Source: Branchiostoma lanceolatum
Taxonomy: Eukaryota > Chordata > Leptocardii > Amphioxiformes > Branchiostomatidae
DNA length: 64,000 bases
Assembly: GCF_035083965.1 (NCBI RefSeq)
Contig: NC_089724.1
Coordinates: 10,100,910 to 10,164,909 of the forward strand
Direction of reading: 5' to 3'
Made by a program: the position numbers and the translations under genes. Shown here in pieces: positions 2,683-63,149 of the stretch (positions are counted from its first letter, which is position 1; every line of letters starts with the position of its first letter). The notes under the pieces are model-generated. The model did not search any database and had not been told where the DNA came from. It saw nothing but the letters and a program-made list of their open reading frames with translations.

Positions 2683-3127
2683 CATGACTGGGGGATGGGT
2701 GTTATATTTATGGAACAGCGTCACTGGTAATCAGGTCATCTGTAATATTGTGTACTAACCCTGGTATATCTTTGTATGAACAATACGCGTCCATCATACG
2801 AGTGCAACCTTAAAGCTACTAAACCAGATAAAAACTTTGAAGGCAAATCTCTTTTTACTAGGTGCCGAAAAACGTGGTTTCCTCGTAACATAAGCTTTAT
2901 ATAAAAATGAATGGCCACTGTACTGCAAAGTTAGCACATAACAGGACATGTACGCAATGGCAGTACTTGAAGCGCTAGATAAACATGAATGTGTGTATTT
3001 TATCTAAAGGGTCACGACCCTACATCCGTCCACCTGTATACCTTGAACAATCAGTAACTTCATATAATCTGTCTAACTGTTATGGAGCAATAAAACTGTT
3101 ATTCAACCAAAAAAAACGGACTAGCCA

Positions 3128-3202
3128 GAATTTTCGGCTGAATCGCTCAGTCCTCTTAAAGTTATCTGATCAAAGAGGACTGAGCGTTCCAGTCGAAAAT
3201 TC
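3128..3202. repeat. Hairpin-forming inverted repeat (MITE-like)
   Basis: The arms 3128-3158 and 3172-3202 pair at about 28 of 31 positions (GAATTTTCGRCTG... CGCTCAGTCCTCTT). A related end, GGAATTTTCGACTGG, recurs at ~50371 in the last CNDP2 intron, suggesting a dispersed inverted-repeat family. Confidence 0.55.
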
Positions 3203-3933
3203 CAATGAGTCCAGTCTTAGAGTCGGATAACAGTTGGTTCTATAATGCAATTCTCCATCTCAGATTAACTCTCATTCTAACTGTTAGAATTTCTGTTGAA
3301 GGTACCGCCCGAGATGTGGTAGATGTTAACTACTGTATGTATTGCAGCAAGAACAGACAACCCAAACATGACAACACCACTAAAACTTCATGGACCTAAG
3401 ATTGAACCAGGAACGGCAGAGGGGTCGCATCTCCTCCTGTTGTTTACCACCATTCTCCCGGTTGCTCAGCTGTGTGATTCTCATAGCCTTGTGGCTCAAA
3501 AGAAATGTTCACTTTTGACCAACTTCTCCTCGTCAGCAAGATATTAGGTGATGGCTGTCTTCTCATGGCTGGTGAAAAAAAGTTTTAAAAAAAAGAAGCT
3601 AATGCAAACAAAGCAGAACATTCATACCTGGGTGAAATGTACAAGTTATTGTCAGAAAGCTGGGAGAGCGTGTGAGTGAAATTGATGGCAACCAATCTAT
3701 GACAAATCTGAACACAACATACTTCTTTTCTCCCTTCTCGACCTCTTTTCGAGCCACAATAAAACAATCAAAGAAGCCGGTATTTTCCACAAACCTTTTT
3801 TATTCATTTTGGTCTTCTTCCATGACAAATAACAGCCGTTAATAAGACATAAGCTTCCTGGGTTTTATCTGGTAATTTGCATGTACCGAGGGCAAGCCGT
3901 TTAGATAAATCTGATGAAGGTTATGATCACATG

Positions 3934-15100: not shown

Positions 15101-18100
15101 CCATGGACACACGGGGAGGCAATGCATTCCGCGACTGAAGAAAAAAAAAAAGAAAGTAATGTTCATGCGCTCTGTTCTGTTCCAACTATTTTTAAACATA
15201 TGTGCCTCAATACTGAATTGACTATGACTAGTTTTCATCCACATCCCATATGACTTTGTGAATCATACCATTATTGATGAATAACCGAACAATGCAAAAA
15301 AAAAGCACCACCTTATTCCAGGGGATCATTGCTAAAGCAAACATACATTTCGGCCATGTTTACAATGCGAAATCAACGTCAACATAAAACACATGCTCGA
15401 TATATGGACAGTATTCGCGTGAATTCTAGATGTCGGCGCAAAGCTCTAGCAACTCGTCGTCCACGTTGTACCTGTAATAGCCACGAAGCTGTCATCGAAA
15501 TATCATCTGAAGTTCTAGGTTTTGTTAACAATTTTATTCATACTTTCATCATGTACAATTTATCATTTTTCAAGACTTGCTTTGATTATTCACTGACACA
15601 TGCAGAAATTCTATTTCAACTTTGCAATAAACAAGAGTCAGAATAATTAACTGTCATAAGATCTATTTCATCAGATAAAGAGACCTCTACCTGTGTGACT
15701 TGTTCGTAACTTCCTTCAGCTTAGTTTTGAGAGAAATTTCCTACATGTGCTGTATGTGGAAGTTTACACAAATTGTTTCTTTACCTGCACAAAGAGCGTA
15801 CAGGTCGTAGTATGATTCTCCAGACACCAGGCCGCTCTCTCCGTATATCACCGCTCCGCTTTCAGATCTTGCGTGGTACACAACAGTGCCGTTCAGAACC
15901 AGGCAGTCGGAGGCATCGGTGGTTCCGCACAGGTGGTAGGAGAGAATCTCTGTGGTTCTACATGTGATATCTGCATGGTCGAAACTGATACAGCTAGAGG
16001 AATAGTAAAGTGATGAATCACATGTCCCATGACCTGTGTACCAGCAGGGATAGCTCATTCCTGCATACCCACAGGTGTACCGGACTTCAGTATCCGTCAT
16101 CTGCCCGTCAGCACGAACTTTGTAGAACATCCATCCCTCATAGGTCACCAGGTACTGTTGGTGTACTTTGGAAAGAAATATTTCAGTAGTGGTAACGTAG
16201 CACTACCAGTCATGATGCACCACCAATTATCGTCCAATTTGGGTCATACAAATATGACCAGGTGTATTATGTAAAATTGAGTTCCCATGAGCAATAAAGA
16301 ACGACTGGTATGATCCTTAGTTGCATCTCCTTTATACAAAATAATGGAATGTCTGAAGTCGGGACAAGTTCCCTGGAATCGTTATGCATGACGTATTTCA
16401 CATGTAATTCGACACCACGCACTGCATGTTTTTCTAACTCGCACAATAGCTATCATATTTCAAAAGTAGCTGACGTTAAACCTTTCTTTGATATTCAATA
16501 TCTATTGCGATTCGAGGCATGAAACTCTTACTAGTTTTACGAAGGTTTGGTACAACCAAGCGACCCATTCACCTACGCTACATTTTCGCACGTCAAAACA
16601 TTATTGCAATGCGTTTATCACGTGAACTTCACGTGCCACTCGGCGTGGTTGAAATTGATTGAACGATATTATTATCTTTAATAGCATTTAGCAAGCGATG
16701 GGACAAATAGAGTTCGTCTGTAGACTACTTTGAACAATTTATGTGCATTTCGTTATTAGACATGTTCTTCAAGTAGATCGCTAGAAGCAGAAAGACTCAA
16801 GTGAACGATTATGGGTAACCCTATCAAAGTTATTCATCGTTAGACCTCTGTATAAATACATGCTCGCACGGCGTTATACAGGTGGAGAAAAGGTTACAGA
16901 AGATTTTCATTTTAAAAGAGCTGATATTTCGACCACCGCCCAGCTCCCGACCACCACCCTGCACCCGATCACCTCCCTGCACCCGACCACCGCCCTGCAC
17001 CCCACCACCGCCCTGCACCCGACCTCCGCCCAGCTCCTGACCACCGCCCAGCTCCTGACCACCGCCCTGCTCCCGACCACCGCCCAGCTCCCGACCACCG
17101 CCCTGCACCCGTCCACCGCCCAGCTCCTGACCACAGCCCTGCTCCCGACCACCGCCCTGCTCCCGACCACCGCCCAGCACCCGTCCACCGCTCTGCTCCC
17201 CACCACCGCCCAGCTCCCGACCACCGCCCTGCACCCGTCCACCGCCCTGCTCCCGACCACCTCCCTGCTCCCGACCACCGCCCTGCACCCGTCCACCGCC
17301 CTGCTCCCGACCACCTCCCTGCTCCCGACCACCGCCCTGCACCCGACCACCGCCCTGCACCCCACCACCGCTCTGCACCCGTCCACCGCCCAGCACCCGT
17401 CCACCGCCCAGCTCCTGACCACCGCCCTGCTCCCGACCACCGCCCAGCTCCCGACCACCGCCCTGCTCCCGACCACCGCCCAGCTCCCGACCACCGCCCA
17501 GCTCCCGACCACCGCCCAGCTCCCGTCCACCGCCCAGCTCCCGACCACTGCCTAGCTCCCGACCACCTCCCAGCTCCCGACCACCGCCCAGCTCCCGTCC
17601 ACCGCCCAGCTCCCGACCACTGCCTAGCTCCCGACCACCGCCCAGCTCCCGTCCACCGCCCTGCACCCGTCCACCGCCCTGCACCCGACCACCGCCCTGC
17701 ACCCCACAACCGCTCTGCACCCGTCCACCGCCCAGCACCCGTCCACCGCCCAGCTCCCGTCCACCGCTCTGCTCCCCACCACCGCCCAGCTCCCGACCAC
17801 CGCCCTGCACCCGTCCACCGCCCTGCTCCCGACCACCGCCCTGCTCCCGACCACCGCCCTGCACCCGACCACCGCCCTGCCCCCACCACCGCTCTGCACC
17901 CGTCCACCGCCCAGCACCCGTCCACCGCCCAGCTCCTGACCACCGCCCTGCTCCCGACCACCGCCCTGCTCCCGTCCACCGCTCTGCTCCCGACCACCGC
18001 CCTGCACCCGTCCACCGCTCTGCTCCCGACCACCGCCCTGCACCCGTCCACCGCTCTGCTCCCCACCAACGCCCAGCTCCCGACCACCGCCTAGCTCCCG

Positions 18101-21100
18101 TCCACCGCCCAGCACCCCACCACCGCTCTGCACCCGACCTCCGCCCAGCTCCTGACCACCGCCCTGCTCCCGACCACTGCCCAGCTCCCGACCCCCGCCC
18201 AGCTCCCGACCACCGCCCTGCTCCCGACCACTGCCCAGCTCCCGACCCCCGCCCAGCTCCCGACCACCGCCCAGCTCCCGACCACCGCCCAGCTCCCGAC
18301 CACCGCCCAGCTCCCGTCCACCGCCCAGCTCCCGACCACTGCCTAGCTCCCGACCACCTCCCAGCTCCCGACCACCGCCCAGCTCCCGTCCACCGCCCAG
18401 CTCCCGACCACTGCCTAGCTCCCGACCACCGCCCAGCTCCCGTCCACCGCCCTGCACCCGTCCACCGCCCTGCACCCGTCCACCGCCCTGCACCCCACCA
18501 CCGCTCTGCACCCGACCACCGCCCAGCTCCCGACCACCACCCTGCTCCCGACCACCGCCCTGCACCCGTCCACCGCCCTGCTCCCGACCACCGCCCTGCA
18601 CCCGTCCACCGCCCTGCTCCCGACCACCGCCCAGCTCCCGACCACCTCCCAGCTCCCGACCACCGCCCTGCTCCCGACCACCGCCCTGCACCCGTCCACC
18701 GCCCTGCACCCGTCCACCGCCCTGCACCCTACCACCGCTCTGCTCCCGACCACCGCCCAGCTCCCGACCACCGCCCAGCTCCCGACCACCGCCCTGCTCC
18801 CGACCACCGCCCTGCACCCGTCCACCGCCCTGCTCCCGACCACCTCCCAGCTCCCGACCACCGCCCAGCTCCCGACCACCGCCCTGCACCCGTCCACCGC
18901 CCTGCTCCCGACCACCGCCCTGCTCCCGTCCACCGCCCAGCTCCCGACCACCGCTCTGCACCCGTCCACCGCCCTGCTCCCGACCACCGCCCAGCTCCCG
19001 TCCACCGCCCTGCTCCCGACCACCGCCCTGCGCCCGTCCACCGCCCAGCTCCCGACCGCCGCCCAGCTCCCGTCCACCGCTCTGCTCCCGACCACCGCCC
19101 TGCTCCCGTCCACCGCCCTGCTCCCGACCACCGCCCAGCACCCGACCACCGCCCAGCTCCTGACCACCTCCCAGCTCCCGACCACCGCTCTGCTCCCCAC
19201 CACCGCCCAGCTCCCGACCACCGCCCAGCACCCGTCCACCGCCCTGCTCCCGACCACCGCCCTGCACCCGTCCACCGCCCTGCTCCCGACCACCGCCCTG
19301 CTCCTGACCACTGCCTAGCTCCCGACGTTAAACGTTAGCAGGTGAGAACAATACTTGGTTGTGTACAAAGAACCTCCTATATCCTGTACATCAATGATAT
19401 CGACAAAGGCATAACATCCAAGCTACGTCTCTTTGCAGATGATTGTCTAATATATCGCCCCATACACACTGACATAGACCAACAAACTCTCCAAAGCGAC
19501 CTAGACAGTCTGTGCGCCTGGTCAGATACCTGGCAATTAAGATTCAATGTAAAGAAATGTTGTATATTGCATGTACACAAACCCAAAAGGTCACCACATC
19601 ACACGCCGTACACAATGTTTTCAGAACCGCTTGTGACCAACAGGCAACACTCCTACCTAGGGATTATACTTTCACAAGATCTCAAGTGGACAGCACATGT
19701 CAACTCCGTCACCTCCAAAGCAAACAGAACACTGGGATTCTTGAAGCGTAACTTAAGGGAGGCCAACAGACAGGTAAGGCCTAAAGCGTACACCTCGCTA
19801 GTTAGACCCCAACTAGAATATGCCGCTACAGCCTGGGGTCCCCAAAAACGACAGCAAGCACAAACAAACGTATCACAGGAGAAGTTAGAATCTGTACAAA
19901 GACGGGCAGCCAGGTGGGTACATAATGATTACAGATACAGCACCAGCGTCACACAACTCATGCATAACCTAGGGTGGCCGTCACTACACGACCGCAGAAC
20001 ATTTGCACGCTTGGTTCTTTTCTAAAAAGCGCTCAACAATTTAGTCGCCATTCCCCTACAGGATTATGCCACCCATAACACCAACAACATAAGAGGCCAT
20101 CCGCTCCGATACCAGACTCACTACTGCAGAACTGACTCATATAGAGGCAGCTACATCCCAAGAACAATAGTAGAATGCAACATTTTACCTCCCAACTTAG
20201 TCACAACATCAACACTACCGAAGTTCAGGTCGGGATTGCCCAACATATGGGCCTTCCCACCTCCCAGTAGCCCTTTTTGTTTGCTAAGGCACTTTTATAC
20301 TATATTATTTTTCACACATTAGTTTAGACGTATTTCACTTTTTTGCATTGTTTTGTTTTGTTTTGTTGAGCACCACTTCCACCACCGGCCGCACTTAGCC
20401 ATGCACCCTAGGCATGATGCCCCATATTGTTTTTTTCCCCAGTATATTTAATACTAATACTAAGACTAAAGGAGGCCTACGGGAGGAACTTTCTGGCACC
20501 TGAGCCCTCGCCCTACCACCCCCGCGAGCAGACAAAGCGCACATCTAATCAAACTTCACAGTTTTTGACGGGTAACTTAAGCATTCGCCTTTTTTTACAT
20601 AGTTTTAATTGCATATGTCACCAATATACAATGACACTAAAATACTAATTACTGAAATCCCGAAAGGTAGTGGATGCTACCTGAAACGTGACCGTTTCCA
20701 AATCCACCCGGATGCTCAAGGAACCGTTTATTGCGTATCCTCTTACCTGGATGTCTAACCTTCATCGACGCAATTTTTCGGTATTCATTCAGCACTTAAT
20801 CAGCAATACATAGTCATCTATTCAAATAGGAGCTAGATGTGATAGACTGTATCTGCACTTGTAATTGTATGGGAATGTTAGAAGCAGCCTGCAGCAGTTA
20901 CTGCTCACCTGCGCACAGTGTGTACTTGTTGGCGTAGTTTTTCCCGTCTATGTCCAATTGGCTGGTCTCAAAGTCCACACCCAAGGCGCCATCGTCAATG
21001 TCAGTGTAGCGGTTTTCTGGGTAGCGCAGGAAGATGTCGTCAAGAGGCTGGCAGTGTTGGGGTTGATTGGTTCCACACAGGGATTGAGACAGGACGCCCA

Positions 21101-26351: not shown

Positions 26352-26439
26352 ATTAATTAGCTATCTTTAGCCATTACGTGCCATTGAGTACGCTACTGTC
26401 TGGTTCAGCTAACTAGAAAGTGACTCTCCGCCTATCAAT

Positions 26440-27837
26440 ATGGAAGGAGAAACTGATGGTCCGTTAGAAGAAGATGGTGTCAACCATGTTCCATTTCTCG
26501 GGTCAACATCTCGAGATCTCCAGACGACATACCTCGTCTTTAGCCTAGTGCTGTCCGTGGGATCGGGGCTACTGCTCATTTTCTTGGTTTGGAAAAAAGA
26601 GCGTCTGCAAAAACCGAGCAACTTCCTCCGCTGCAACCTGGCTGTCGACGACATCATCTTCACCAGTTGCTTGATTCCCATCCGTATCTACGCACTTTTC
26701 AGGCAAGATGAGCACCTGTTTTGCTCGGCTAGATCACTGGTAGCACCCGTATTTCTTCTGTCTATGTCTAGTACCTACCTCATGATGGCGATAGATCTGT
26801 ATCATTTTGTGTGCAATCCTCTACACTACCACGACAAAGTCACCACAAAACGTGTGGTTGTGGGCATCTTGACCATTAGGGCATTCTCCTTGTTCTTCGG
26901 ACTGGCTCCCGTGGCTTTCGGCGGACTGCCCGAAAACAGCCTGTTTTGTGAGTACGACCCTGCAAACAGTGCTGCCGTATCTGCCATTTTCAGAAACATC
27001 AACTTGTTTGTCTTCTTACTTGCCACTCTCTCCGCTCTCGCGCTCTACTGCCGCGTCTTCAAGGAAGCCAGGAGACAACAGGAAAGGGACGAGAACCGCG
27101 ACCTGTGGGTCTTCCAGACCAAGGCATTCAAAACGATGGCGCCGCATGCCATTGTTCTGACTGTATCCGTAACTACTATCATTTTCCAGGTGGCCATGGC
27201 GCGAGCTTTGATCAGTAAAGAACAAATGTTGCAGTATGCCCTGATCGTCATTGATCACGTAGCCATCCTCCTGTTCCTGACGGTATCATCCATTGCCAAC
27301 CCCATCATACACAGCTTTCGGCTCCCAGAGTTTCGTCGAGCCTGTAAGGAGCTGTGTGGATTGCCGACCAAACAACCTGCAGCATCGGCACCGCGGCATC
27401 AGGACATGAGGATAGCCGCCATCGCTGGTCCCGATCGCGAGCAAGGCGCGCCGGCCACAGAATTGACGCCAGCTCGAACCTCTGCAAACAGCCTGAAGCC
27501 GACGGTGAAGGACGCACCTTCCGACCAAGCGCAAAAGCAGACACAGGCAGACATGAACCCGGGACTAGCGTATGGTACAGAGTACCGTGGCCATAGGAAC
27601 GCTTTAGAGCGACCATTCCATCTAACAGTAAGGGCAGAAGTACACGCTGAACCAACACCATGTTCCGGAGAGTACACCATGGACACTCTTCCCGAACAAC
27701 TGATCTTGGAGGCTGAATCAGCACACGTCTCTACATCAACGTTGAACACCGCGACCGAGGGGGCAACAGTACGACACACCGTGAACCGGTTCGCTTCAGG
27801 GCGCCCACTCGCGCGTCCGAAGTTGGCCTGGGAGTGA
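26440..27837 (+). CDS. Atypical rhodopsin-like (class A) GPCR, single exon
   Basis: 465 aa without introns. Seven hydrophobic segments: ~30-51, 62-87, 98-124, 138-160, 182-206, 232-257 and 265-291. Class A landmarks: LAVDD in TM2 (D70 or D71), C95 paired with C170 in the second extracellular loop, a short third intracellular loop, and NPIIH at the end of TM7 (287-291). Departures: the DRY motif reads DLY (119-121), the TM7 tyrosine is His, TM6 lacks CWxP, and the TM1 asparagine is not apparent. The C-terminal tail (~150 residues) is hydrophilic and rich in Ala, Thr, Glu and Arg. Ligand unknown. Single-exon orphan receptors are common in lancelets, but loss of the DRY arginine suggests unusual or absent G-protein activation. 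The start is the first Met and precedes TM1 by a plausible ~30-residue N-terminus. Confidence 0.85.
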   Translation: MEGETDGPLEEDGVNHVPFLGSTSRDLQTTYLVFSLVLSVGSGLLLIFLVWKKERLQKPSNFLRCNLAVDDIIFTSCLIPIRIYALFRQDEHLFCSARSLVAPVFLLSMSSTYLMMAIDLYHFVCNPLHYHDKVTTKRVVVGILTIRAFSLFFGLAPVAFGGLPENSLFCEYDPANSAAVSAIFRNINLFVFLLATLSALALYCRVFKEARRQQERDENRDLWVFQTKAFKTMAPHAIVLTVSVTTIIFQVAMARALISKEQMLQYALIVIDHVAILLFLTVSSIANPIIHSFRLPEFRRACKELCGLPTKQPAASAPRHQDMRIAAIAGPDREQGAPATELTPARTSANSLKPTVKDAPSDQAQKQTQADMNPGLAYGTEYRGHRNALERPFHLTVRAEVHAEPTPCSGEYTMDTLPEQLILEAESAHVSTSTLNTATEGATVRHTVNRFASGRPLARPKLAWE

Positions 27838-38914: not shown

Positions 38915-38922
38915 ATGGCGGC
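38910..38922 (+). promoter_or_regulatory. YY1-type motif over the CNDP2 start codon
   Basis: CCAAGATGGCGGC overlaps the ATG. AANATGGCGGC near a transcription start is the classic YY1-class element of housekeeping promoters. LIPT1 has a similar word over its ATG (59725-59737, minus). Confidence 0.55.
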
Positions 38923-41900
38923 CCCCGAGTTCCTGCAGAAAATTTTCAGGTCAGTCTGCGGGCTTGTTTTTCACCATTGTAGACTACATGAAGGTACCAG
39001 ACAGGTGTGTTAGTGTGTGTAAAGATGACTTGCATGCAGAAGGAGAAAAATCAGAGAAAAATCGCGTTCGCGCCGTATCACAGCTGCGAACGTAGTGTGT
39101 GTGTGTGTGGGGGGGGGCATGCTTGGTACATAACAAGTCACAAACACTTAGTATTGTATTGGGTACTGAAAGTGAAAGGTCAGCATATGATGTCACCGAA
39201 ACTGTCAGGGCTGTTAGACAAAGAAAAAAAAAGCATTGAGCTATTCCAGCTGAGATGTTTGCTTTGCCCCAATCAACGCGGGCATTGAATTTTGTTTTTC
39301 TGGGCTTTATTGTCTTGGTTCTTATTGTTGCTTGCGTTCCTCTTGAATGATAGGATGTATGATTTTTAGAGATAGGCGAGACATAGCTCTGTCATGAAAT
39401 TGAAGACTCCCTCCTCCCCCGTGATGCTTGGAATTTTCTCGAAGATTTTAGCAGATTGAAGACGATGGGGAAACAAATACATGGCACGTAAGCTGGGGTC
39501 CACCTAGCCGTGGCGACTCTTTAATCGGGTATATTTTGCTGTATGTCTAAAGACTCTTTTACATTACCCTCTTGTGAGGGTAATGTAAAAGAGTCTTTAG
39601 ACATACAGCAAAATATACCCGATTAAAGAGTCGCCACGGCTAGGGTCCACCCACCTCCAACCTTAGCATACAACAGATGTTATAGGTTGTGCAGTGGTTA
39701 ATATGTAACCATCCTCATCTTTAGCAATGATGATGATGATTCACTGTGTTCTGCGGCTCAGAGGTTGAGGAAACAGCCTCTGTCTGCATTCAGTCTTTCT
39801 TCATTTCTTTCCACTGTGCCTTCTTTCCTGCGAGCTGCCGTAGCTCTCTGAGTTTCTTTGCTGTTCTTAGGTCTCCAATTCCTTTGTTCTTGAGGTCTGT
39901 TTTTAGGACACTTAGTAGGTTTGTGCAATGTCTTCCTTTTCTGGCCTTGTATTTGTTGCACCCCACTGTAGCAAATTCTAGTGCCTTTTGTACTGGAGTG
40001 TCTTCGGGCATGCGGAGGATGTGCCCTAGCATGCACCACCTTAGGTGGTGAACTTTCACTGACAGTTGGGTGGTGTTGCACATCTTATATAGTGCTTTGT
40101 TAGAGATCTTGTGGGGCCATTGGTACCCTGTGATTTTGCGCAGGTGTTTCCGATGACATGCATCAAGTTTGTCCAATGCTGCCTTTGGCACTGCCCAGCT
40201 GTTGCAGTTGTATAGCATTATGGAAACACAAGTTGCGTTGTATATTTGCAGCTTTTTAGTCAGGGGAATCTTTGACCTGCGGATCCACAGTTTCCAAAAC
40301 GATTGGAAGGCGATGTTAGCCATGATGCAGCGTGCCTCTATGTCTGAGGAGCTGCACAGTTGCGATCCCAGGACCTTACTCTTCCTCCAGCTCTCCACTC
40401 CTCGGAGAGTTTCGTCATTTTCTCCTGTTTCCTGAGTGTCAGCCAGGTAGATGTGTGTAAATTCTGTCTTACCCTCGTTGACAAACAGGTTTGACTCTTT
40501 GAGGGTTTTGGCAGCTATTGGGAGGAGTCTTTGTAATGTGTCCTTTTCTTCATCAATGAAGTCCACGTCATCCGCATATTCCATTTCTAGTGGCATGCCT
40601 AGGCCGGAAACTGGAGGGTCTGGTCTTGATGAACTCCTCCGTATAGATGACAGTGCAGAAGCAAGGTAGCAGGTGAACAACACCGGGGATAGACTATCTC
40701 CTTGTGGGGAGCCAATAGTGGTTTCAAAGTCTGCTGAGTAGGCATTTTTGACTCTGACTTTCAGCTTGGTTCCTGCCAGTAGTAGTCTAACCAGTCGGAG
40801 TTCATCATCGTTGCATCCTGCTTGATCTAGCACTTCCAGGATTTTGGACCTTTTGATGGTGTCAAAGGCTCGGGACATGTCTATGCCCATCTTGTAGAAG
40901 TCCCAGTGCTTGGTCATGACCACAGAAACTAACATACGTTGAGCCCACACAATATCTGCGCAGCTGCGTCCCCTCTTGAACCCACTTTGATAGGGTCCGG
41001 TGAAACTGTCTATTTTGTCCCTTGTACGATGCAGAGCAACAGTAGACAGGATTTTCCTTATGCTGTTGAGAAGGACAATGGGGCGAAGGTTCGCAGGTGG
41101 ACCAGGTGTTTTTTGGGGTTTGGGCAGGGCGATCAGGGTGCCTTGACCAATGGATTCGATTGGATGGTGGTGTTCAAAGGCATAGTTAATGGTGGAGGCA
41201 ATGATTGGTGATATGACATCACTCCCATACTTATATAGTTCATTGCTAATTCCATCTGGCCCCTCTGAGCGTCCGTTGTTAAGGGTCTTTATGGCATTTC
41301 TAACTTCCATCTCTGTGATCGGTGCTTCCAGTGGTCTCGGCTCTCCCAGGAACGGTTCTAGTTCTTCCCCATCTGGGTCAGAGAACTGTTTCTGAAACCA
41401 TTCCCTGATTGCTTCCGCCTTTCCCATGTCTGTTGCGATGAACTGGCCTTCTGTGTTGTGCACTGATAATGTTGGTTGAGGGAGTCCAACCTTGAGGGCA
41501 CGGACGGCTTTGAACATCTTTCGGCTTTCCTCTGTGGAATACTAGCAATACTACATACAAAAAGTAACTCCTCAGCTAAGGAATGTCTTGCAGCTGTGCC
41601 AGGTAATAGTAACTTAATGTAGGGGAACAAGGCAGAATCAAACAAAATGAGATCAAGTATTAGCAAGAGGAGTGAGGTACAAACATGCAGTGTGGTTTAA
41701 TGAGGGTCTGCATGCTCTTTTCTGTAAGGCACAGGCAGCCGTTTTTTATGTCCCGTAATTCCTCAAATTTCACGCCACACGCTCAAATTTCAACCACGTA
41801 ACACCCGGACAGACTCCTACAAATATTCATACTAGTACTTCCCCCGCACAATCCCCGAGTGGAACGCCCTGCCTGGCACGGTTGTTACGGCTCCCACCGT

Positions 41901-44900
41901 TGAGTCATACCGCGCCAGGCTGGAGGCCTGCCCGCCTTAGCCTGGGACCTCCTCCCCCCCTACTTTGCCCCTCGCGGGGTTATCTGGGGGTAAATCAAGT
42001 TGAAGTTGAATTCGTAGGGAAAGCTGTCTTAGTCACATGATTTGTAGCGAGGCGACTCACGTAATTTGTATGGGGGGTGACTTGAAGTCTTTGACTTATG
42101 CAGACCCTCTTATTTAATAGATCTCTTAAATATATCTGGGCCCTCACCACTTCAATGCTGTTGATTTTGTGTAGGTAGAGATATGGCAAACAACCAATGA
42201 AATACTAGTATGCTTGTACCAACCTGTTGGTACCACATGCTGGTAGAGCGGGTGTGAGTCTGGATGGATTCTCCACATGTACAGAACCCATCTACATGTT
42301 GCTCCCACTAGGGCACACCCACACTGACTTCAGGAACTGTTAAGAAAGTGGCTTTGATTTATTTAGAAGGAACCTTGGTTCATCAGAAAATCCTACATAC
42401 TTAGTGATGTATGTTTAGTGCTCTAAATGTGGTCTGTGTAGCATTACACAAAGTTCCACCAGAATGCTTCAGAACATTGTATACTACAACATAAATGAAG
42501 TAGCTGCATAACTCATGTCAGAAGTTTTTCCCTTACATGATGTAGACAATACTGTACAAATTTCTAAGCACAGTAATATGGAGCAGAGAGAGCATTTGAT
42601 GGAATTTGTCAAGGATATGGCATCCTTAACTCTTGAATCTGAGGAGAGATTCAGACTACAGTACTACTAGTAAACCTAATCAGACTTTCATCCTGGTTTT
42701 GGCTTGACAACCTTCATTCTTTCAAAAAATGTTACATACATTGAAAGCAGACATATTCTTCAAAGCATGTCATTCCTTGATGACTGCAGTTCATCAATCG
42801 AAAATTTGGGTAAGCCCTGGAAATTCTTGTCAGAAATTGCAGTTAATTTTGATACAGGATATTATATTTGCGCAGGTGTGTATTTCCTAACCCAGAACAA
42901 ACACAAAGCTGTACACAGTACTGGTCTTATCATGTTGTGTGCCTCTAGTGTTTATCGTAGCTGTACAACACAAGAGCCTAGACACACATAGGCAGGTGTG
43001 ATCATACATGTATGTGTGAGAGTCAGTATGATACATGTAATGGTGTAGCCGAGGATGTTAAACTTGCCAGATGCTTCACTATAATTTGCAATATCCTCTC
43101 CCTTCATCCTTTATTAGCAAAAATATAATATCCTGAATATTTTCATAGTAGGGCAAGAAGTCCACAATGGTTTATCAAATGTATGGTAGTCTAAAAGAAT
43201 CTTATATCATAATGCTGTGATTGTCTGGATGAAATGATATATATTAATAGAGTGATGAAAACAAGTTTCAGTTTTAGTGCATACAGCTTGTTTTGGTCCA
43301 CTGATGCCGGTTGGTCTGAAAGAGTGACCTCATGTCTTGGGCATGTTCCAAGCTGATCCAATGTTGGTATTACTTTCAGTTTCAAAGAGTTACAGTAACA
43401 CACTCCACACAATGTTGTTATGTAAGTCTTTTCACATTTGGTGTATGGAAATCTTCTCTAAGAGAAGAATATACTTTTAGAACTTGGTACCGTATATTAG
43501 CAATAGGGTATCATCATCATCATAATCATCAGTAAATCAAATCATGATGATGTATGATTCTATCTTTCTCAAAGTCTTATGATCATGATGTAATGATGTC
43601 TTGTTGAAATTGATATTCAGTACATGATTTACAGTAATACCTTTTCTGCAACACCATCTTTAAGATGTTTATACTTAGTCATAGCCAGACTTAAACTAAG
43701 ATGTAAAATAGGTTACTCTTCTTCCCTGCAGTTACATTGATGACCACCAGGAGGAGTATGTGAAGCGGCTGTCAGATGTGGTGGCCATCAAAAGTGTGTC
43801 TGCCTGGCCGGAGGTCAGGGGGGAGGTCACCAGGATGGTCAAGCACACAGCCAAGGTACATGTATGAAAAGGATCATACTAGTAGATATCTTGTAAAATA
43901 TCATAATAGATCGTACATTTATTGACCTTTGTACTTAGTACTTCTGTTTCCTGTAGAAAACAGTAGCCAAACATTTCTGTGTCTTTGACCTTGGCATATC
44001 AAGGTTACCATCTGCATTTCCACGTTTGAAAGTGGGTTCCCTATGGTCTAGGGCTGTCTCTATATGACCTGTCCCTCTGGCCCAGGACAGAAATTTTCCA
44101 AAAAATTTGACCCTGTTAGTCCATAAACTTATAATAATAAAGTCTGAACTTCATGACATGAAATTGATGAAGAAGTATTTTCCGATTTTACACTGAAAAT
44201 TAATAACATGGGCTCCCAAACAATGAATGGGACAGTCCTTCTGCTGTGTCAGGAATGCATGATATTGTCTTGTTTTTTGCACAGAGTTGTATACATATTT
44301 GCCTACATAGGTAGATATATGAACAGGACATGATGATATCATATTTATATCTCAGTCTGTAATGTGATACCATGACTCCTGTAGGAACTTGAAGCCCTGG
44401 GTGCCACAGTAGAGCTCTGTGACCTCGGGATGCAGAAACACCCGGACGGCTCCGAGATCCCCCTGCCGCCATGCATTCTGGGATATCTGGGCAAGGACCC
44501 CAAGAAGAAGACTGTTGCCGTATATGGTCATCTGGATGTGCAGCCTGCCCACAAGGTGAATTTTTACCATTATTTTTACCTTTACTACCTGATACACCTG
44601 TCCACTATATTTATCTCCATGAAAAATGGTGATATAGTTTTTGGCGTGTCTGTGTGTGTGTCTGTGTGTCTGTTTGTGTTTCCAGACTCTTGTAGTCAGC
44701 ATAACTGGCACCTCTGGATGGATTACGATATTTGGTATGTGGGTAGGTGTTGGGAAGGTCAAGGTCGATTTTGGGCCCCCTGGTATGTGACCTTGGTACT
44801 GCAGCATAACTTTTTGTATCTTTTGACCTGGACGTACTATGGTCTTGATTTTTTTCGTGGCAGATAGCTTGTGATGTAATGAAGAAGTGATGTAGGTTTT

Positions 44901-47900
44901 GGCCCCCTAGTTTGTAAAAGTTTCTCCCATACTTCCACATTATTAGATCAAGTCAATAGCATTTGATGATTTCTTACATTGTATTTTCTTAAAATCTAGT
45001 TGTGATTCAACTGCACTTACATTAGGGCTGAGGAAACAAAATGTCTGACAGATTTCTTTTTCCCCCTATGATTTTGTCCAGGAGGATGGGTGGGACACTG
45101 AGCCGTTTGTTCTGACAGAAATCGATGGCAAAATGTACGGCAGGGGCTCCACAGATGACAAGGTGCGTTGTGAAATTGTGTATGGATAAAGGTTTGTAAC
45201 ACAAACAAATCAACCAGAAACTCTGTATCAATGATTGCATCTTGTGTCTGAAAAATAGGAAATACTTCTGTGAATTTGTACACTCTTAGCTACATTGGGG
45301 ATGAAAAACAGAGCTAAGCTTAGCCCTTCATTTGAGTAGTAGAAAATGTAAATCTGTAAGTCATTATTATTAAGAAAATGAACCTTGTATGACTCTTTCA
45401 GGGTCCTGTGCTTGGTTGGTTGAACTGTATCGAGGCCTACCAGAAGATCGGACAGGAACTCCCAGTTAACCTCAAGGTGTGAATCTGAGAGACTGTTCTT
45501 TTACTAATCCTCTCCCTGCTGCAAGCTCATGTATAATATATTAAATGTCTGTTGACTGAAGGACTAAGTATAGGGAAAGGTTTTAGATCCTTCAGGTTTC
45601 AGGGTCTTAGTAGATCAATGTTTCACCTTGCACCAGTGCATTGACATGATCAGTCTTTATCATATCAAACTATCAGTGCACCAGTCTAATTTTGTTGTGT
45701 ATTATGCCTGAAAATATAACACAATGGACTGCTGTCAGAATGTAAACTGTTTCACAGATAAAACTGTTTAATTTTAAACATGATAGATTCATGTCTTCAT
45801 GATAATTGACTCACAAATGAATCTCTTTTCATGATCAGTTCATCTTTGAGGGGATGGAGGAGTCAGGGTCGGAGGGGCTGGATGATCTTCTGATCTCTAA
45901 GAAAGACAGCTTCCTCAAGGTATGGACAAGCAGGCAAAGGCACACAACAGATACAACACATAACCCATGACTGTATCCTATCTCCTTTAGATATGTGTGT
46001 CCTAATCTCTATACAGAAGTTTCTCACATGTTAGGTGTGATTTGAGACGTGGTGCATATTTGAAGTTTTACTTACAATGACTGCATGTCCTAAATGTGGC
46101 CACTTATTTACATGCCAACATTTTTTCTGTTTTTGAAATGTTACTCTTTCCTAGGATGTGGACTATGTGTGCATTTCTGACAACTACTGGCTTGGGAAGA
46201 ACAAACCCTGCATCACATATGGACTCAGGTGGGTCAAAACAGTCCCTGAGATATTATGTCAATTACAATGTCAGTCTGATGTATACCACAAATATAATGA
46301 CAATTGGTAGCAAGTATCTGAGAACTTCCAGCCAATTCCTGTAACTGGAATATTTCTGCAGTTAATTTTTGTGGTAACATAAACATAGCCTCTGACATTG
46401 ATATGTTTTAAGTTTGGCTTTTTACAACTAGCTCTCAACATGTCTTCTTCTATTATAGTTAGATGCCATTGTGAGAAGAGATATCAAAAGCCTATCTTTG
46501 ATTGTTTCTGTACTTTTTCTATCCTGCAGGGGAATCTGTTACTTCTTCCTGGAGGTTCAGTGTGCTACTAAAGACCTGCACTCTGGAGTGTTTGGTGGAT
46601 CTGTGTAAGACTAACATCTCTATATTATTTTTTTGAAAGAAGATTTTCATAGATAACAACTCACTGAATATCATCTATTCTTAACAAGTAAATAACATCA
46701 GAGCATTGTACCAACAACCATGTGTGTGTAGATTGCTTGATGATATATTCTCTGAAAGCAGCAAAGGACAATTTTTCTATCATTGCTGGTATTTTAACTG
46801 GTCGATAGGATTTCCTACATAAGTGCATCATAGATCCACTGTGGTAGTTAAGACACTTTGTTCAATAGACGAATTTGAACGACACAAACTGATGTCGTCA
46901 TAGGGGAGATTTAACTCACAAACTGTCTATGCAATTGCGCATGTCTGTTAAGAATAGAATGTGTTTGAACGACAGTCCCCGAACCCCGGCCTGTGTCATG
47001 GAGCATGGTGTCTCCCGGCTATTCACTTCCTGTGGGCGGTCTGGTGCCTGCACACATGCCGTCAAACGTTTCCAGATATCGCTATACAATGTCGATAACT
47101 ATTCCCTTTTTCCGTTCAAATTCGTCTATTCAGTGACTACTGTATGAACTATGATATATGTTAACTAGGAAAGCTGATAACTAGGAAATGTTCTCCCCCC
47201 CACCCCCCATGTGCAGTCATGAGGCCATGACTGACCTGATAGGTCTGATGTCCAGTCTGGTGGACACCAAGGGTAACATCAAGGTGCCAGGTATCAACGA
47301 GATGGTCACCACGGTAACAGACGAGGAGTTGGCATCATACGAACCCATCGACTTCGACATGGTCAGACTATCAGGATATTCTTTCAACTGTGGACTCTTC
47401 CTTGATCTTGTGATTTTTAGAAATTTCTTTCCCACTTGCTTTCTTTTTGAAACACACATTTATTTAGTAATTCGTAAGTTAAGTTAACAATAGCAGTCTG
47501 TTCATCTTATGTCATGATTATGTATATATACGTTCCTTTTAATATTGCAATCTGTATGTATGTCTGTTTGTATTTGTATGTAAGATTAACCCTGTAAGAT
47601 ACGACTAAAGGGTATTGTAATAAATGAAATGAATGAAGCAATGGAGTTTGAAGCCTCATTTATAAGAGTTTCATGGGCCAAAAAATCTACCATCAGTTGA
47701 ATTTTTGTCTTCCCTTTCAATTTCACAACGTTGAAATAGTATTGATTCTAAGTTGCCATGAAACCTCAACATCAAATGTAAGAATCTTTTATACCTACAT
47801 GTATAGGCAATACAGAGATGATTCTTGTAAACATGGAAGTATGGTACTATCTGATTATGCATTTGAAGACTTGTGTCATGACCTTGGTTGTCCTCTGACC

Positions 47901-50553
47901 TGAACAGGAGACCTACAGGGCAGACTTGGGGCACAAACGTCTCCTTCACGACACCAAGGCAGGAATCCTCATGCACCGCTGGAGGTTCCCCACCCTCTCC
48001 CTCCATGGTACAGTCCAGTAGGATTTCACAGCTTACATTTGTAGACTGATATCACATGTCATGCATGTCCTTAATGATGGAGTGTAAGCATCTAAAACTT
48101 AATATTTATGAAAATGGCAAATGAGGCACGAAGACAACAAATACAGCCAAAAAGAAATAGCTACATCAGCAAACTGAAGATACATGGAAACATGTGTGTT
48201 GTAATAAAAGACTGGCTCCATACCTTTTTTCAGTTGGATGATCATGATTTGATGTTCTTTTTTTTTTAACGATCTCGCTCAATGCAAGGCTGTAAGAGGC
48301 CACTTCTCGGCATTGAACTTGTTCATATATTTTGCTAAAGATTGCAGTGGAGGTTATATATCATCATCAGTCGACGTGCTTACGGGTTATACAGCCCCTT
48401 ATGGGGTGACATACCCTTTCGTTGACTGATACAAGATGGGGATGCACCGGCACTATAACTACATGTTGTATTTGTCACCGCTGCAGGTATTGAGGGTTCG
48501 TTTGACGGTGCTGGTGCCAAGACTGTCATCCCGCGGAAGGTGATCGGGAAGTTCTCCCTGCGCCTGGTGCCGGACATGCTGCCTGACCAGGTGGAGAAGT
48601 GTGTGGTGGACTACCTGAACAAACTGCACAAGAACAGCGGCAGCCCCAACGAGATCAGGTAAGGAATGTTACATGCATTTATCTGGAAAGAAATTCTTAA
48701 GTAAAAGTCCTCATGTTAGCTTCCTGGTGAGCCACCAAAATGCTGGACAAGGGGTGCGTACATTAATGGGGTTTTCCCCTTGAACGTTTTAGCTCCCTTG
48801 GTCAGGTCTGCGATCACCCCCAAATTGTGAGTGCATACTTTATAGGGGATGCATACTCTATTGGAAACTTTACAATAATAAAATTTTGAATTGAAAGGAA
48901 TATGTCCCCAATCAGGTTTCTTCTTTAAAATCACATGTGACGAATCCTTTTTAAAAATCTTAAACCTTTTTTAAATCTCATTTGTAACTGAGTTGCTGTC
49001 AGTTACTCTAAAATCTAAATCTTTTAAACCTTTTTTAAAATCTCCTTTATAACTGATCGATGAGTTGCTGTTTTTAATTTCCCTTTTGTAAAAAATGTTG
49101 CTATTTTTAGTTTCTGTTTAAAATTTCTCTTTTTTCCAGTGTTACCATGGGGCATGGGGGTAAGCCGTGGGTGAGTGACTTCAACCATCCTCACTACATC
49201 GCAGGACGTAAGGCAACCAAGACTGGTGAGCTAAATACTGAGAGGATTGTGTTGTACATTCTGACAAAAAGATATCGAGCTCTTGCTTGAGAACTTACCC
49301 AAAATCTTTATTACATTACATGTTTACTCTTTCCCCAAATCAACACTTAGGAAACTTTAAGGTACATTCACTTGATATTTGATGTTGATACCATCTATTG
49401 TCTACATCTAGATGAGCTGAGCAACGTATATGTTAACATCCTTTCTGATCCACAATCTGAACAGTTTGGAACTGTGAGCCTGACTTGACTCGCGAGGGTG
49501 GGAGTATCCCCGTGACCTTGACCTTCCAAGAGGTCACCGGCAAGAACGTTATGCTTCTGCCCATGGGCGCCTGCGACGACGGCGCACACTCCCAAAACGA
49601 GAAATTTGATCGGAAGAACTACATCCAAGGGGTACGTAGATCATGCCTTATTGATTATGATTGTGTATTTTCTATTTCATCCATTAGTTTGGGGCGTGGA
49701 GCCAGATTTGACGAGGGATGGATGTAGTATTCCAGTGACGTTGACATTTGCGGATGTGACAGGGAAAAACGTGATGCTTCTCCCAATGGGTGCATGCGAT
49801 GATGGGGCCCATTCCCAGAATGAAAAGTTCAACAAGAAAAACTATTTTATGGGGGTAGGTCTAAAATGTTGACTAAAGTTGTTGATTGCAATGGTATTGT
49901 GGATAAAAGATATCCTGCAAGTACTGATCAACATAGTACACAGAACGTACAACAAATTTTTAATCTCTAATATTAGGATTTTACAGACCTGTATAATTGC
50001 TATTTCAAGAAGAATACTATATCTCAGCAATTATAGATTTTTAATTGATTTCCAACATAAAATTTCAAACTCTGACCCAAAACTGGCATCAGTAATTCTT
50101 CACTTAAATGTTTATATTTTAACTAACGTGATGTAGGTTTGTTCCAGCATCTTGGAGCAAAAAGCCCCAAATCATGTTGAGCAGCTGCCATATAATCTTC
50201 AAACCAGCAATGTAATAACTTTCAGCAGTCCTATGTATGTATAAGTAGTTGTTTGAACTTCTTCCTTTTATGATCATAGACATGATATCCAGTTCGGAAA
50301 AAAACACTGACATGTCAACATATTACAAAGAATTAAAGTGTTCTCCAGCTCAAAAATATGTACTCACCGGAATTTTCGACTGGTTCTAACAGTCTTCTTC
50401 AGCTGATTACATTTTTTATGTTGGAGAACAGTTTAATTCTTCATAATGAATTTTACGAGATGAACTTTCCTGCTAATGTCAACATTTCTTCATCCCCTCC
50501 AACAGACCAAACTGCTCGCTGCCTACCTCCACGAGGTTTCCCAGCTGGAGTGA
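38915..50553 (+). CDS. CNDP2: Cytosolic non-specific dipeptidase (M20 metallopeptidase)
   Basis: Exons 38915-38949, 43732-43855, 44385-44555, 45082-45162, 45402-45476, 45839-45919, 46155-46228, 46530-46604, 47217-47361, 47908-48007, 48487-48658, 49140-49225, 49465-49631 (or 49688-49854) and 50506-50553; 477 aa, against ~475 in vertebrates. The enzyme hydrolyses dipeptides such as Cys-Gly with a two-metal centre. Visible ligands and catalytic residues: H102 and D104 (GHLDVQPA), D135 (GRGSTDDKG), E169/E170 ([11 protein letters not shown]), D198 (ISDNYW), H231 (LHSGVFGG) and H448 ([10 protein letters not shown]). Termini match the family: [11 protein letters not shown] and [15 protein letters not shown]. 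The start is the ATG in the YY1-type motif. AATAAA at 51586-51591 is a candidate polyadenylation signal. Intron 1 (4.8 kb) is full of mobile elements. Confidence 0.95.
39504..39643. mobile_element. Perfect 68-bp palindrome with 4-nt loop (foldback MITE?)
   Basis: Arms 39504-39571 and 39576-39643 are exact reverse complements, with a TTGT loop. The outer ends are CTAGCCGTGGCGAC / GTCGCCACGGCTAG. The palindrome is flanked by the direct repeat GGGTCCACC (39496-39504 and 39643-39651, overlapping the last stem base), which fits an 8-9-bp target-site duplication. In CNDP2 intron 1. Confidence 0.8.
39730..41541 (-). mobile_element. 5'-truncated LINE with open reverse-transcriptase frame
   Basis: A minus-strand open frame of 575 codons (41517-39790) continues upstream in frame a few codons to a TAG near 41541, probably the truncation point. 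Reverse-transcriptase motifs: [21 protein letters not shown]-type [24 protein letters not shown], motif [10 protein letters not shown], motif [14 protein letters not shown], motif [11 protein letters not shown]; then [24 protein letters not shown] and [14 protein letters not shown], a C-terminus typical of LINEs. The N-terminal endonuclease is missing. The 3' end has an ATC-repeat tail (~39730-39745). Clade not assigned. It lies antisense in CNDP2 intron 1. The long uninterrupted frame implies a fairly recent insertion. Confidence 0.85.
41730..42010 (+). mobile_element. 3' end of a CR1-type LINE
   Basis: The plus strand encodes [13 protein letters not shown] followed by [14 protein letters not shown] and a stop, the usual C-terminal end of CR1-like reverse transcriptases, with a TAG in the preceding YKYSY segment. 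A short 3' region ends in AAGTTGAAGTTGAA. Same general group as the fragment at 19342-20330. Confidence 0.7.
44049..44238. mobile_element. hAT-like MITE copy (CNDP2 intron 2)
   Basis: It starts TAGGGCTGTCTC and contains GGCTCCCAAACAATGAATGGGAC, the reverse complement of a segment in the element at 57253-57478. One end is eroded. Confidence 0.6.
44640..44940. repeat. GT-rich dispersed repeat (CNDP2 intron 3)
   Basis: An imperfect GT run (GTGTCTGTGTGTGTG) is followed by GGATTACGATATTTGGTATGTGGGTAG-type sequence and TTTTTCGTGGCAGA. Related stretches lie at 31881-32230 and 35070-35460. Confidence 0.5.
46864..47130. mobile_element. MITE in CNDP2 intron 8
   Basis: Exact 18-bp terminal inverted repeats AATAGACGAATTTGAACG / CGTTCAAATTCGTCTATT surround ~230 bp without an open frame of note. 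A target duplication cannot be fixed because the flanks (TTC / CAG) are short. Confidence 0.7.
49688..49854 (+). CDS. CNDP2: Alternative penultimate exon of CNDP2 (exon 13b)
   Basis: 167 nt, the same length and phase as exon 13a (49465-49631), with its own acceptor (TTAG before TTTGG) and donor (GGGGTAGGT). It encodes [15 protein letters not shown]...[29 protein letters not shown] and matches 13a at about 45 of 55 residues, including the metal-binding His. Codon third positions differ widely, so the duplication is old and the protein is under constraint. The 56-nt gap between 13a and 13b is very short for an intron, and including both exons (334 nt) would shift the frame. Confidence 0.85.
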
Positions 50554-60150: not shown

Positions 60151-61840
60151 CTATGGAAGGCTGATCAAACAGGTGTCATAGCGGTAGCGACGGTCCCTGG
60201 GGAGGAGGAACAACACAACCTTTTAAGCGTAATGTTACATCATTATAAGCACAGATCGAATCGTACAGTATGACAGTCATGTAACAATACGTTTTGTAAA
60301 GTTGTAACATAACAGAACGTTAAGGGGCATCTCACTGGACTGCGGCACGTTGGCGACCTCGCTGCGTCCTAATTTTTTTTTTGTTACCCCTGACTTTGTA
60401 ATGTGAATATCACGCAAAACGCACAAGTATGACCACAAAGACAACAAAGCACACAAAGCGTAAAAAGATTCGTTTCTTATCGACGAAATTCGTTGAGCGC
60501 TCTGTAAAATCTCTCGGCCGCAGCGAAGTCGCCAATTGCAATGTGCCGCAGCTTCAGGGTCCTTCACGAAATAGGGCCAAACTAATATTCGTCTTTCATT
60601 TGAGCAAATATATAGAAAAACTGACAGCGACAGCCACAGTGTCCATTTACATTCAAAATTTCACAAGAAATTATCTCGGTAAAGTTCTCATTTTTCTAGC
60701 TCTGTTTCTTTTATCAAAGTGTAAGATGACGAGCATAACAATTATACCATGATAAATTGTGTTTATTTACCCGTAGTCGTCGCCATGGTAACTGTGCATG
60801 CCCCTCAGGTAGAAGCCGTCAGAAACGTTGTAGTCGCCCGGCTGGGCAAGTTCATTGGTGTAGTTGGACAGGACGTTGTTAAACGTGATCATGTCGTAAA
60901 CCTTGGAACACCTGACCTGTGGTTTTAGGCGAGAATGGTACAATAAGTATCATTTATAGCTATTAAAAAATTATATGACCAAACGCCACTGACTATTTCA
61001 TATTTTCACAAACTACATGCATGTTGTGTGTAATTGAAAAAAATGACACGATTATATGGACCATGCAAAGCAGTGTGTCTTTTTCAGCTTTATTTCTACG
61101 TGTGTTTACAAAGCGATTTTAATTTTGCTTGGAAACCATGATATATCAGAGTCTAGCGCGTTATAAAGTGACCCAATTTCACAAGTGAACTTTCAAATTG
61201 ATGGGCTTACTACAAAGCACCGAAGAAGGCATTTTTCTAAACTTTCAGGATACTTTGAAATAGCAAGCTTTGCAAGGCAGCCAACTTAACAGTAGGATTG
61301 CTGAGACAGACTGGTAGAGGGTTTTTTTTTCGCAAAGCGCTCTCAAACAAAAGCGCTATATTTCAAAATCTATCAAAATGCACAGGTAACAAAAATCTTA
61401 AGAGCGAACAAACTCACATTCCACCTGCGGTCCTCCCTGCCGTTGCTGTGCTCGCTCTTGAACCCCGTGATGATAGCGTTGAACGGACACTGGTAGTTCA
61501 TCACGCGGTCGTAGTCATTAATCCAGCCCGACCAGAACAACTCGTGGAACACGGACACACCCGGGATCGACTCGCAGTCGAACCGCCAGACCCTGTCTTT
61601 AGCAGCGTCGCAGTAGGCGCTCCGGATGCGCCTGATGACCTGGAAATCCGGGCACAGGAACGTGAACGTGCCGTCCCAGGTGGTCTGGGCGCCCGGTAGA
61701 ACGTCGGCGGGGTCCGGGCAGCGGGGCGGGGGACGGGGTCGGGGGCGGCTGCGACGAGAACCCCGCCGGAGCCAGAAAGCGTCGTCCAGCCCGACCAACA
61801 GCCCCACCACGGCGATAGTCAGGAGAGCACGGAGGAGCAT
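60151..61840 (-). CDS. Dermatopontin-family secreted protein
   Basis: Exons 61840-61418, 60916-60771 and 60196-60151; 204 aa. Signal peptide (MLLRALLTIAVVGLLVGLDDA), then a basic Arg/Pro-rich stretch, then the dermatopontin-type core with repeated D-R-x-[WY]-x-[FYV]-x-C motifs: DRVWRFDC, DRRWNVRC and DRRYRYDTC. Between them lie CPDFQVIRRIRSAYC, CPFNAIITGFKSEHSNGREDRRW and FNNVLSNYTNELAQPGDYNVSDGFYLRGMHS. Vertebrate dermatopontin is an extracellular-matrix protein; invertebrate relatives include agglutinins and shell-matrix proteins. Extracellular matrix or defence binding is inferred. AATAAA on minus at 60040-60045, ~105 bp past the stop. An NYT sequon is present. Confidence 0.85.
60322..60562. 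mobile_element. GC-ended MITE, second copy (dermatopontin intron)
   Basis: It starts AAGGGGCATCTCACTGGAC, CGGCACGTTGGCGACCTCGCTGCG, and near the right end has CGCAGCGAAGTCGCCA..GTGCCGCAG. Internal words match 35729-35955. The right end is eroded. Confidence 0.65.
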
Positions 61841-63149
61841 GTCGAGAGTAGCCGGTCTGTGTCTTGGACTGATCGAATATCTTCAGAACCTATATAGCCA
61901 TGAATACACAAGTACTTGCCAGGTTTCTTTCCGCATTCTGAGAAGGAGTATATGTAAATTTTCTGTGTGGCTGGCAATACTGAGTTTTTATAAGGAAACG
62001 ATAATTAATTTTTTTTTTTTGCACTGTCTGCAAGTTCAATGACTCTAAAGCTAACATCCGGTGTCAATCCTAGAGATGCCTTTTTGGCAGCAAAGCCGTT
62101 TCTGTGTCACGTAGTCGCCTTTGGAGTTTATAATCTGTTATTACATATTTGTATGGTATGTTCTTCATGTTAATTCTCTGTTATCATCCTTACTGACTTT
62201 AATGTTGACATTTTCAAATACTACCTTGCTATCTTTTACCGAGCTACCCTACCACATGTATATTAAGATAACCGGACGGAGACTATAGTCACTAAACGAT
62301 CTTTGTGAAAGCTTTTCCTTCTTAGTTACGGTATCAACTTAAGCATGCTCACAGAACAGATGTCAACAAAAGACATTTCACAAATCCATGTTTGCAACGG
62401 AAAACATCTTTATTAAAAACTGACCACAATTGAATATAAACTAAAAGGTACAGTTTCGCAACTGTATAGCAGCAATGGACGATTTACATGACGGGCATCT
62501 AATTATCGATATAAACTTGTCACTCAAATGTACAATTTACTGGCATGAAGTCCTGATCAACGATGTACAGTACAAAACAAAAACAACACATATTTGAAAA
62601 ATGAACAATATAGATTCACGACGTATCAGGCTAACTACGTAATACGCCTTAACGTGCACTTGGAAACAAAATACATTGCCACCGCCCATTATTAGCATTC
62701 AGATATATGATTCCTTACAGTCCCGGTGGAAAGGCAACTTTACGTCGTGGCATTCTATATCGCAAGCGTTAGCGGCTGGTCAGATAAGTGACGGTCAGAA
62801 AAGGCTGACGATTTACAGCCCTAAACATCTGTATAAAAGTTGCCATGCTTATTACTAGAAATACTATCGCTATGCATATAGGATACAGCTCAAGTTGATT
62901 ATAAAAAACTGTGATAAATCCTTGCAGGTAAATACTACGAGCCCTGGTTAGCCTGCCTATGAAAAATGCAATACAAACACCATAAATGGAAGAACGAAAT
63001 ATTTTGTTGTTGGCGCCGCACAAACATTAAAAAAATGAAATAAAAACTTGTGATACAAAATCTAAAATTGTTATACAAAAATACAGACTTCACAAGATGG
63101 TCATGGAATGCAGCATTTTCACCACTTTTGCAGAAGGTGTCGTCTGGAC
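61841..63149. other. Spacer between the two dermatopontin genes
   Basis: AT-rich. No coding exon, promoter box or clear repeat recognised. Confidence 0.5.

Follow-up and report, generated by a model that had tools for sequence, protein, structure and literature searches.

A tandem exon pair, very probably spliced mutually exclusively, in a CNDP2 gene of the lancelet Branchiostoma lanceolatum

The penultimate coding exon of a lancelet CNDP2 gene was found to be doubled, and the two adjacent copies, 13a and 13b, each of 167 nt, very probably represent an old tandem exon duplication that is spliced mutually exclusively, with one copy in each mRNA. Judged from the DNA sequence, the gene probably makes two full-length enzyme forms. 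The original prediction had described a duplicated exon with equal lengths and equal phases, and its coordinates proved correct: both copies are entered in phase 1 and left in phase 0, and both have ag and gt borders. The pair and the intron between its members are listed below, with residues in CN2 numbering, as throughout.

49465..49631, + strand: exon 13a, with the CN2-like substrate loop REGGSIP and with G406N, V407C and N452D relative to CN2 (exon and protein comparison)
49632..49687, + strand: spacer intron of 56 nt, gt...ag, with a pyrimidine-rich 3' end (sequence scan)
49688..49854, + strand: exon 13b, with the altered loop RDGCSIP and with E414D, G416C, Q425A, E426D, R453K and I457F relative to CN2 (exon and protein comparison)

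The two copies agree at 45 of 55 complete codons, in line with the predicted figure of about 45 of 55, and at 46 of 56 residues when the split Val codon shared with exon 12 is counted. The ten residue differences (13a/13b) are N/G at 406, C/V at 407, E/D at 414, G/C at 416, Q/A at 425, E/D at 426, D/N at 452, R/K at 453, I/F at 457 and Q/M at 458. The metal ligand His445 is kept in both copies, as had been claimed. A tblastn search (E up to 1) of the window, which is the whole 64,000-nt stretch of DNA that was analysed, placed exon 13 at two positions and every other CNDP2 exon at one. Neither a third copy of exon 13 nor a second doubled exon was detected in the window by tblastn, the only extra match covering just 10 residues (E 0.28).

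The pair belongs to an intact CNDP2/CN2-type gene on the + strand (38915-50553), which contains 15 exons, both exon 13 copies counted, and reads from ATG to stop as 477 amino acids with either copy. The other exons are as follows.

38915..38949, + strand: coding exon 1 with the ATG start (complete 477-aa frame; weak alone, tblastn E 0.094)
43732..43855, + strand: exon 2 (gene model and PDB match)
44385..44555, + strand: exon 3, with the His99 equivalent, residue 102 (gene model and PDB match)
45082..45162, + strand: exon 4, with the Asp132 equivalent (gene model and PDB match)
45402..45476, + strand: exon 5 (gene model and PDB match)
45839..45919, + strand: exon 6, with the Glu166 and Glu167 equivalents (gene model and PDB match)
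46155..46228, + strand: exon 7, with the Asp195 and Tyr197 equivalents (gene model and PDB match)
46530..46604, + strand: exon 8 (gene model and PDB match)
47217..47361, + strand: exon 9 (gene model and PDB match)
47908..48007, + strand: exon 10 (gene model and PDB match)
48487..48658, + strand: exon 11 (gene model and PDB match)
49140..49225, + strand: exon 12, the common upstream exon, after which the following exon begins at phase 1 (gene model and PDB match)
50506..50553, + strand: last coding exon, common to both forms, with the stop codon (gene model)

The best PDB match of the product was mouse CN2 (2zof, E 9.1e-239), with residues 7-476 aligned to 8-477 (470 against 470), followed by human CN2 (4ruh, 9.1e-236), human CN1 (3dlj, 1.7e-167) and yeast DUG1 (4g1p, 4.1e-147). 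Both isoforms contain the Pfam domains Peptidase_M20 (PF01546) and M20_dimer (PF07687) above cut-off. The metal ligands of CN2 are His99, Asp132, Glu167, Asp195 and His445, and its catalytic residue is Glu166 (PMC6271292); all of them were found in both isoforms, at the CN2 number plus 3. By these matches the gene is one that codes for CNDP2 (cytosolic nonspecific dipeptidase, M20), and its enzyme activity is predicted.

Intron 1 of the gene contains a 583-aa open frame on the minus strand (39793-41541) with a LINE-like reverse transcriptase domain (RVT_1, 4.5e-23) and, beside it, a near-perfect palindrome of 142 nt (39503-39644) that is 97% identical to its own reverse complement. Elsewhere in the window, an 18-nt minisatellite (16930-19326, 133 copies) has long open stretches in several frames on both strands, and a partial RVT_1 match (1.8e-6, 28.2 bits, under the 29.6 cut-off) directly follows it at 19339-20022 on the + strand. 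A single open frame of 474 aa with a rhodopsin-type GPCR domain (7tm_1, 6.3e-25) occupies 26413-27834 (+), and a dermatopontin domain (DERM, 2.2e-24) was matched in a frame at 61376-61882 (-). Exon-like frames that start alike (QEYLTT...NANVKATCE-like) recur on the minus strand at 640-1131, 1574-2026, 7612-8028, 8399-8797 and 15744-16202. They form a repeated domain family near a weak C-type lectin match (6076-6336, 20.7 bits, under the 22.6 cut-off) and EGF-like cysteine patterns, and the frame that was scanned, 1574-2026, had no Pfam match.

Every combination of the two exons was translated, and the 477-aa frame was obtained only with 13a alone or with 13b alone. Joining 13a to 13b shifted the frame, as the original prediction had stated, and translation then ended at the eighth codon within 13b, at a stop 143 nt upstream of the last junction. 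When 13a, the retained spacer and 13b were read together, the stop fell 127 nt upstream of that junction; the spacer itself has no in-frame stop, and therefore translation enters 13b out of frame. Skipping both exons removed His445 and caused the normal stop to be read through. Since both copies, neither copy, or both copies with the 56-nt spacer break the frame, a productive mRNA needs exactly one copy of exon 13.

The spacer is 56 nt long; the remaining 13 introns of CNDP2 measure 235-4782 nt. Branch-point-like yUnAy sites occur in it at A19, A23 and A48, the last of which is only 8 nt from the 3' end of the spacer. In vertebrate OGDH, a distance of less than about 50 nt between the 5' splice site and the branch point enforces exclusivity (PMC7969005), and A19 and A23 are below this steric limit, which was set for the vertebrate gene. 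The claim that the exons are too close to be spliced together thus fits the vertebrate threshold, but no figure for the minimum intron length of lancelets was found among the listed matches in the open-licence literature. Some animals remove introns of about 56 nt. Among human introns, non-canonical ends drop sharply at 70 nt (PMC5435141), and a study of U2AF1 lists steric interference, secondary structure, decay and trans-acting factors as the means by which duplicated exons are repressed (PMC5224494). We consider steric exclusion the likely means by which 13a-13b joining would be prevented, any branch point in the spacer being too close to the 5' splice site of 13a, with frame loss and decay as a backup. 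Any RNA with double inclusion or a retained spacer, carrying its early stop, would then be cleared by nonsense-mediated decay.

The 3' splice sites of the two copies were different in pyrimidine fraction (0.82 for 13b and 0.53 for 13a, the lowest of 14), and their 5' splice sites were alike and middling (2.26 bits for 13a and 2.85 bits for 13b on a human matrix, on which the other 12 range from -1.72 to 7.42). RNA pairing among intron 12, the spacer and intron 13 (duplex z 0.85, -0.41 and -0.58) and local folds at the exon borders (z 0.36, 1.80 and 0.25) did not go beyond shuffled sequences, folding of a single species being a weak test in both cases. Because pairing was no better than in the shuffles, exon choice by a regulator protein or by plain competition appears more likely than choice by a docking-site structure. 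A strong hairpin in the last intron (50322-50447; arms of 35 nt at 50322-50356 and 50413-50447, 83% complementary, fold z -8.31) was discounted as a candidate splicing regulator. It is probably a repeat element, since related sequence recurs at 3080-3235.

The coding sequences of both copies bear the marks of selection on protein. They differ at 53 of 168 nt, distributed over codon positions 1, 2 and 3 as 9, 5 and 39, and the excess at third positions (39 of 53) is significant (binomial P 2.5e-9). There are 31 synonymous and 10 replacement codon differences, 16 of 21 fourfold sites differ, and no stop or indel is present in either copy. The NG86 method gave a dN of 0.139 and a dS that was not computable, and in a maximum-likelihood codon model dS was saturated (at least about 3) and omega did not exceed about 0.036 within the supported range: at dS 3.0 (omega 0.036) the likelihood fell more than 1.92 units short of its maximum, and at dS 4.8 (omega 0.024) it was inside that margin. 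The dS figure is rough because the two exons differ in GC3 (0.73 and 0.54). The likelihood ratio against omega = 1 was 93.6 in this pairwise test, which averages over the 13a and 13b lineages. When 53 random differences were introduced into 13a in 5000 trials, a mean of 23 of 56 residues remained identical (maximum 32), none of the trials reached 46, and a stop was acquired in 79% of them. The saturated dS, together with an omega of at most about 0.04, means that both copies are old and constrained, and by sequence both look functional and conserved as protein.

These measurements bear directly on the idea that one of the copies is a relic, dead or seldom used, that persists by chance, which we regard as quite unlikely. 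The low pyrimidine fraction at the 3' splice site of 13a could be read in its favor, as could the uneven divergence from CN2, with 6 changed sites in 13b, 3 in 13a and one unpolarised, but a relic is hard to reconcile with the low pairwise omega, the intact frames of both copies and the simulation. Another reading, that the exons are not strictly exclusive and that double inclusion or spacer retention yields a poison RNA which regulates the level of CNDP2 besides the two isoforms, draws on the positions of the stops upstream of the last junction in both products and on the passage of translation through the stop-free spacer into 13b. It would, however, require that a 56-nt intron be either spliced out or retained, and we judge it to be similarly improbable. 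It is scarcely credible that the pair is an assembly artefact in which two alleles or a misjoined haplotype were placed in tandem: nearly a third of the nucleotides differ with synonymous sites saturated, intron 12, the spacer and intron 13 have no mutual similarity at E 0.01, and the doubling is confined to exon 13. Mutually exclusive use of two apparently functional copies is the reading that we prefer.

Six residues common to 13a and 13b are found neither in CN2 of mouse or human nor in human CN1 (F405W, A427V, V437M, A440C, L451F and Y454K), of which Met437 is also present in yeast DUG1. Because the copies have these six residues of their own in common, the exon duplication, although old, most simply appears to postdate the split from vertebrates, a dating drawn from four outside sequences.

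The differences between the copies were compared with 20 relatives from outside the window, namely the four PDB chains together with 16 prokaryotic homologues carried on plasmids, the latter chosen for diversity among 40 listed of 340 matching records. Position 416 is Gly in 18 of the 20 (CN1 has Ser and one other has Ala), and position 406 is Gly in 19 of the 20. Because each of these positions is near-invariant in the relatives, 13a, with Asn406, departs from them at Gly406, and 13b, with Cys416, at Gly416. The other eight of the ten near-invariant columns, His445 among them, are kept in both copies. The second change in the 13b loop, Glu414 to Asp, lies at a position occupied by Glu in CN2 and DUG1 and by Asp in CN1; the 16 prokaryotic homologues have neither residue there. 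Scanning of genome contigs produced 11 pattern matches and two loci at 32-34% identity, both to the first half of the protein only; among 195 genomes of the phylum scanned, a match at 1e-20 was present in one, the starting genome itself, and a scan of viral contigs found no relative.

Published models of the pocket give these loop positions some context. Docking of bestatin to CNDP2 placed Gly416 with Tyr197 in one pocket, a contact of Gly416 that was not kept in molecular dynamics, and Ser417 formed a hydrogen bond with bestatin that persisted there (PMC12655758). The discussion of that study terms Glu414 and His445 hot spots, although the energy terms it lists for a second ligand, that of Glu414 among them, are small penalties (PMC12655758). 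Models of CN1 show Ser423 in contact with the peptide bond (PMC11173852), and the offset of 7 between His452 and His445 places this residue at position 416. The original prediction of two isoforms with ten differences beside the active site held for the two full-length frames and the ten differences, but the published substrate loop contains only those at 414 and 416. Two of ten differences within loop 414-419 is no enrichment (P 0.29), which counts against an active-site focus, and the sites changed in 13b were likewise not enriched there (2 of 7, P 0.16). The examples given earlier, WNCE/WGVE and YIQG/YFMG, are real, but they are not the differences with published substrate contacts, and E414D and G416C had been overlooked. 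Similarly, the placement at the metal site is accurate where the exon is concerned but does not hold for the majority of the differences, the metal ligand being unchanged.

The enzyme made with 13a would be expected to resemble ordinary CN2, and that made with 13b to carry an altered substrate loop (Asp414 and Cys416), which may shift substrate range or regulation with metal binding kept. We tentatively entertain, as an unlikely extension, that the 13b form is a functionally distinct dipeptidase, either through CN1-like remodelling of the pocket by Asp414 and Cys416 or through a thiol or redox sensitivity based on Cys416. If the pocket were remodelled, exon choice would supply what vertebrates obtained from two genes, CN1 being separate. 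CNDP2 acts in the turnover of Cys-Gly and glutathione (PMC12655758) and in the formation of Lac-Phe (PMC12519243), and redox sensitivity at Cys416, if true, would make the breakdown of Cys-Gly, and through it the supply of glutathione, dependent on the cellular thiol state. The proposal that 13b is simply CN1-like was weakened, because its changes are not concentrated in the columns that diverge between CN1 and CN2 (2 of 7, 2.75 expected, with 22 of the 56 exon 13 columns different between CN1 and CN2). Exchangeable exons in which a metal ligand lies together with part of the substrate pocket offer a clean natural experiment. Only ten positions distinguish the isoforms, and therefore one pair of assays would show how the substrate range of CNDP2 is set by residues 406, 414 and 416.

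Exclusive exons that arose by tandem duplication are a familiar arrangement, and CNDP2 is apparently new as a gene that bears them. In human genes, 236 tandem duplicated exon substitutions have been annotated, half of them internal, and CNDP is absent from the main text of that survey (PMC9741552). Among the matches listed in the open-licence literature, no report of a duplicated or exclusive exon in a dipeptidase, carnosinase or lancelet CNDP2 was found, nor was an open-licence paper on carnosinase in amphioxus or CNDP2 in Branchiostoma. Judged by their titles, none of the listed papers treated the splicing of CNDP2, and none of those listed on exclusive or duplicated exons in amphioxus dealt with this gene. 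Exons 4a and 4b of vertebrate OGDH likewise form an exclusive pair in a metabolic enzyme; they concern another enzyme and were tested in cells, with isoforms unlike in Ca2+ sensitivity (PMC7969005), whereas the CNDP2 pair is known from sequence. The exon 10 pair of the Crassostrea virginica alternative oxidase is also a duplicated enzyme exon that gives isoforms of the same size, with one copy conserved and the other changed around key functional sites, but it is a last-exon pair in an unrelated enzyme, with proof at the mRNA level and a response to stress (PMC5589949). The CNDP2 paralogue CNDP1, the human serum carnosinase (3dlj), has Asp414 and Ser416 where 13b has Asp and Cys, but it has Thr at 417, where 13b has Ser, and it is a separate gene rather than a swapped exon. 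The exon pair therefore allows exon duplication to be compared with separate genes (CNDP1 and CNDP2) as routes to enzyme diversity.
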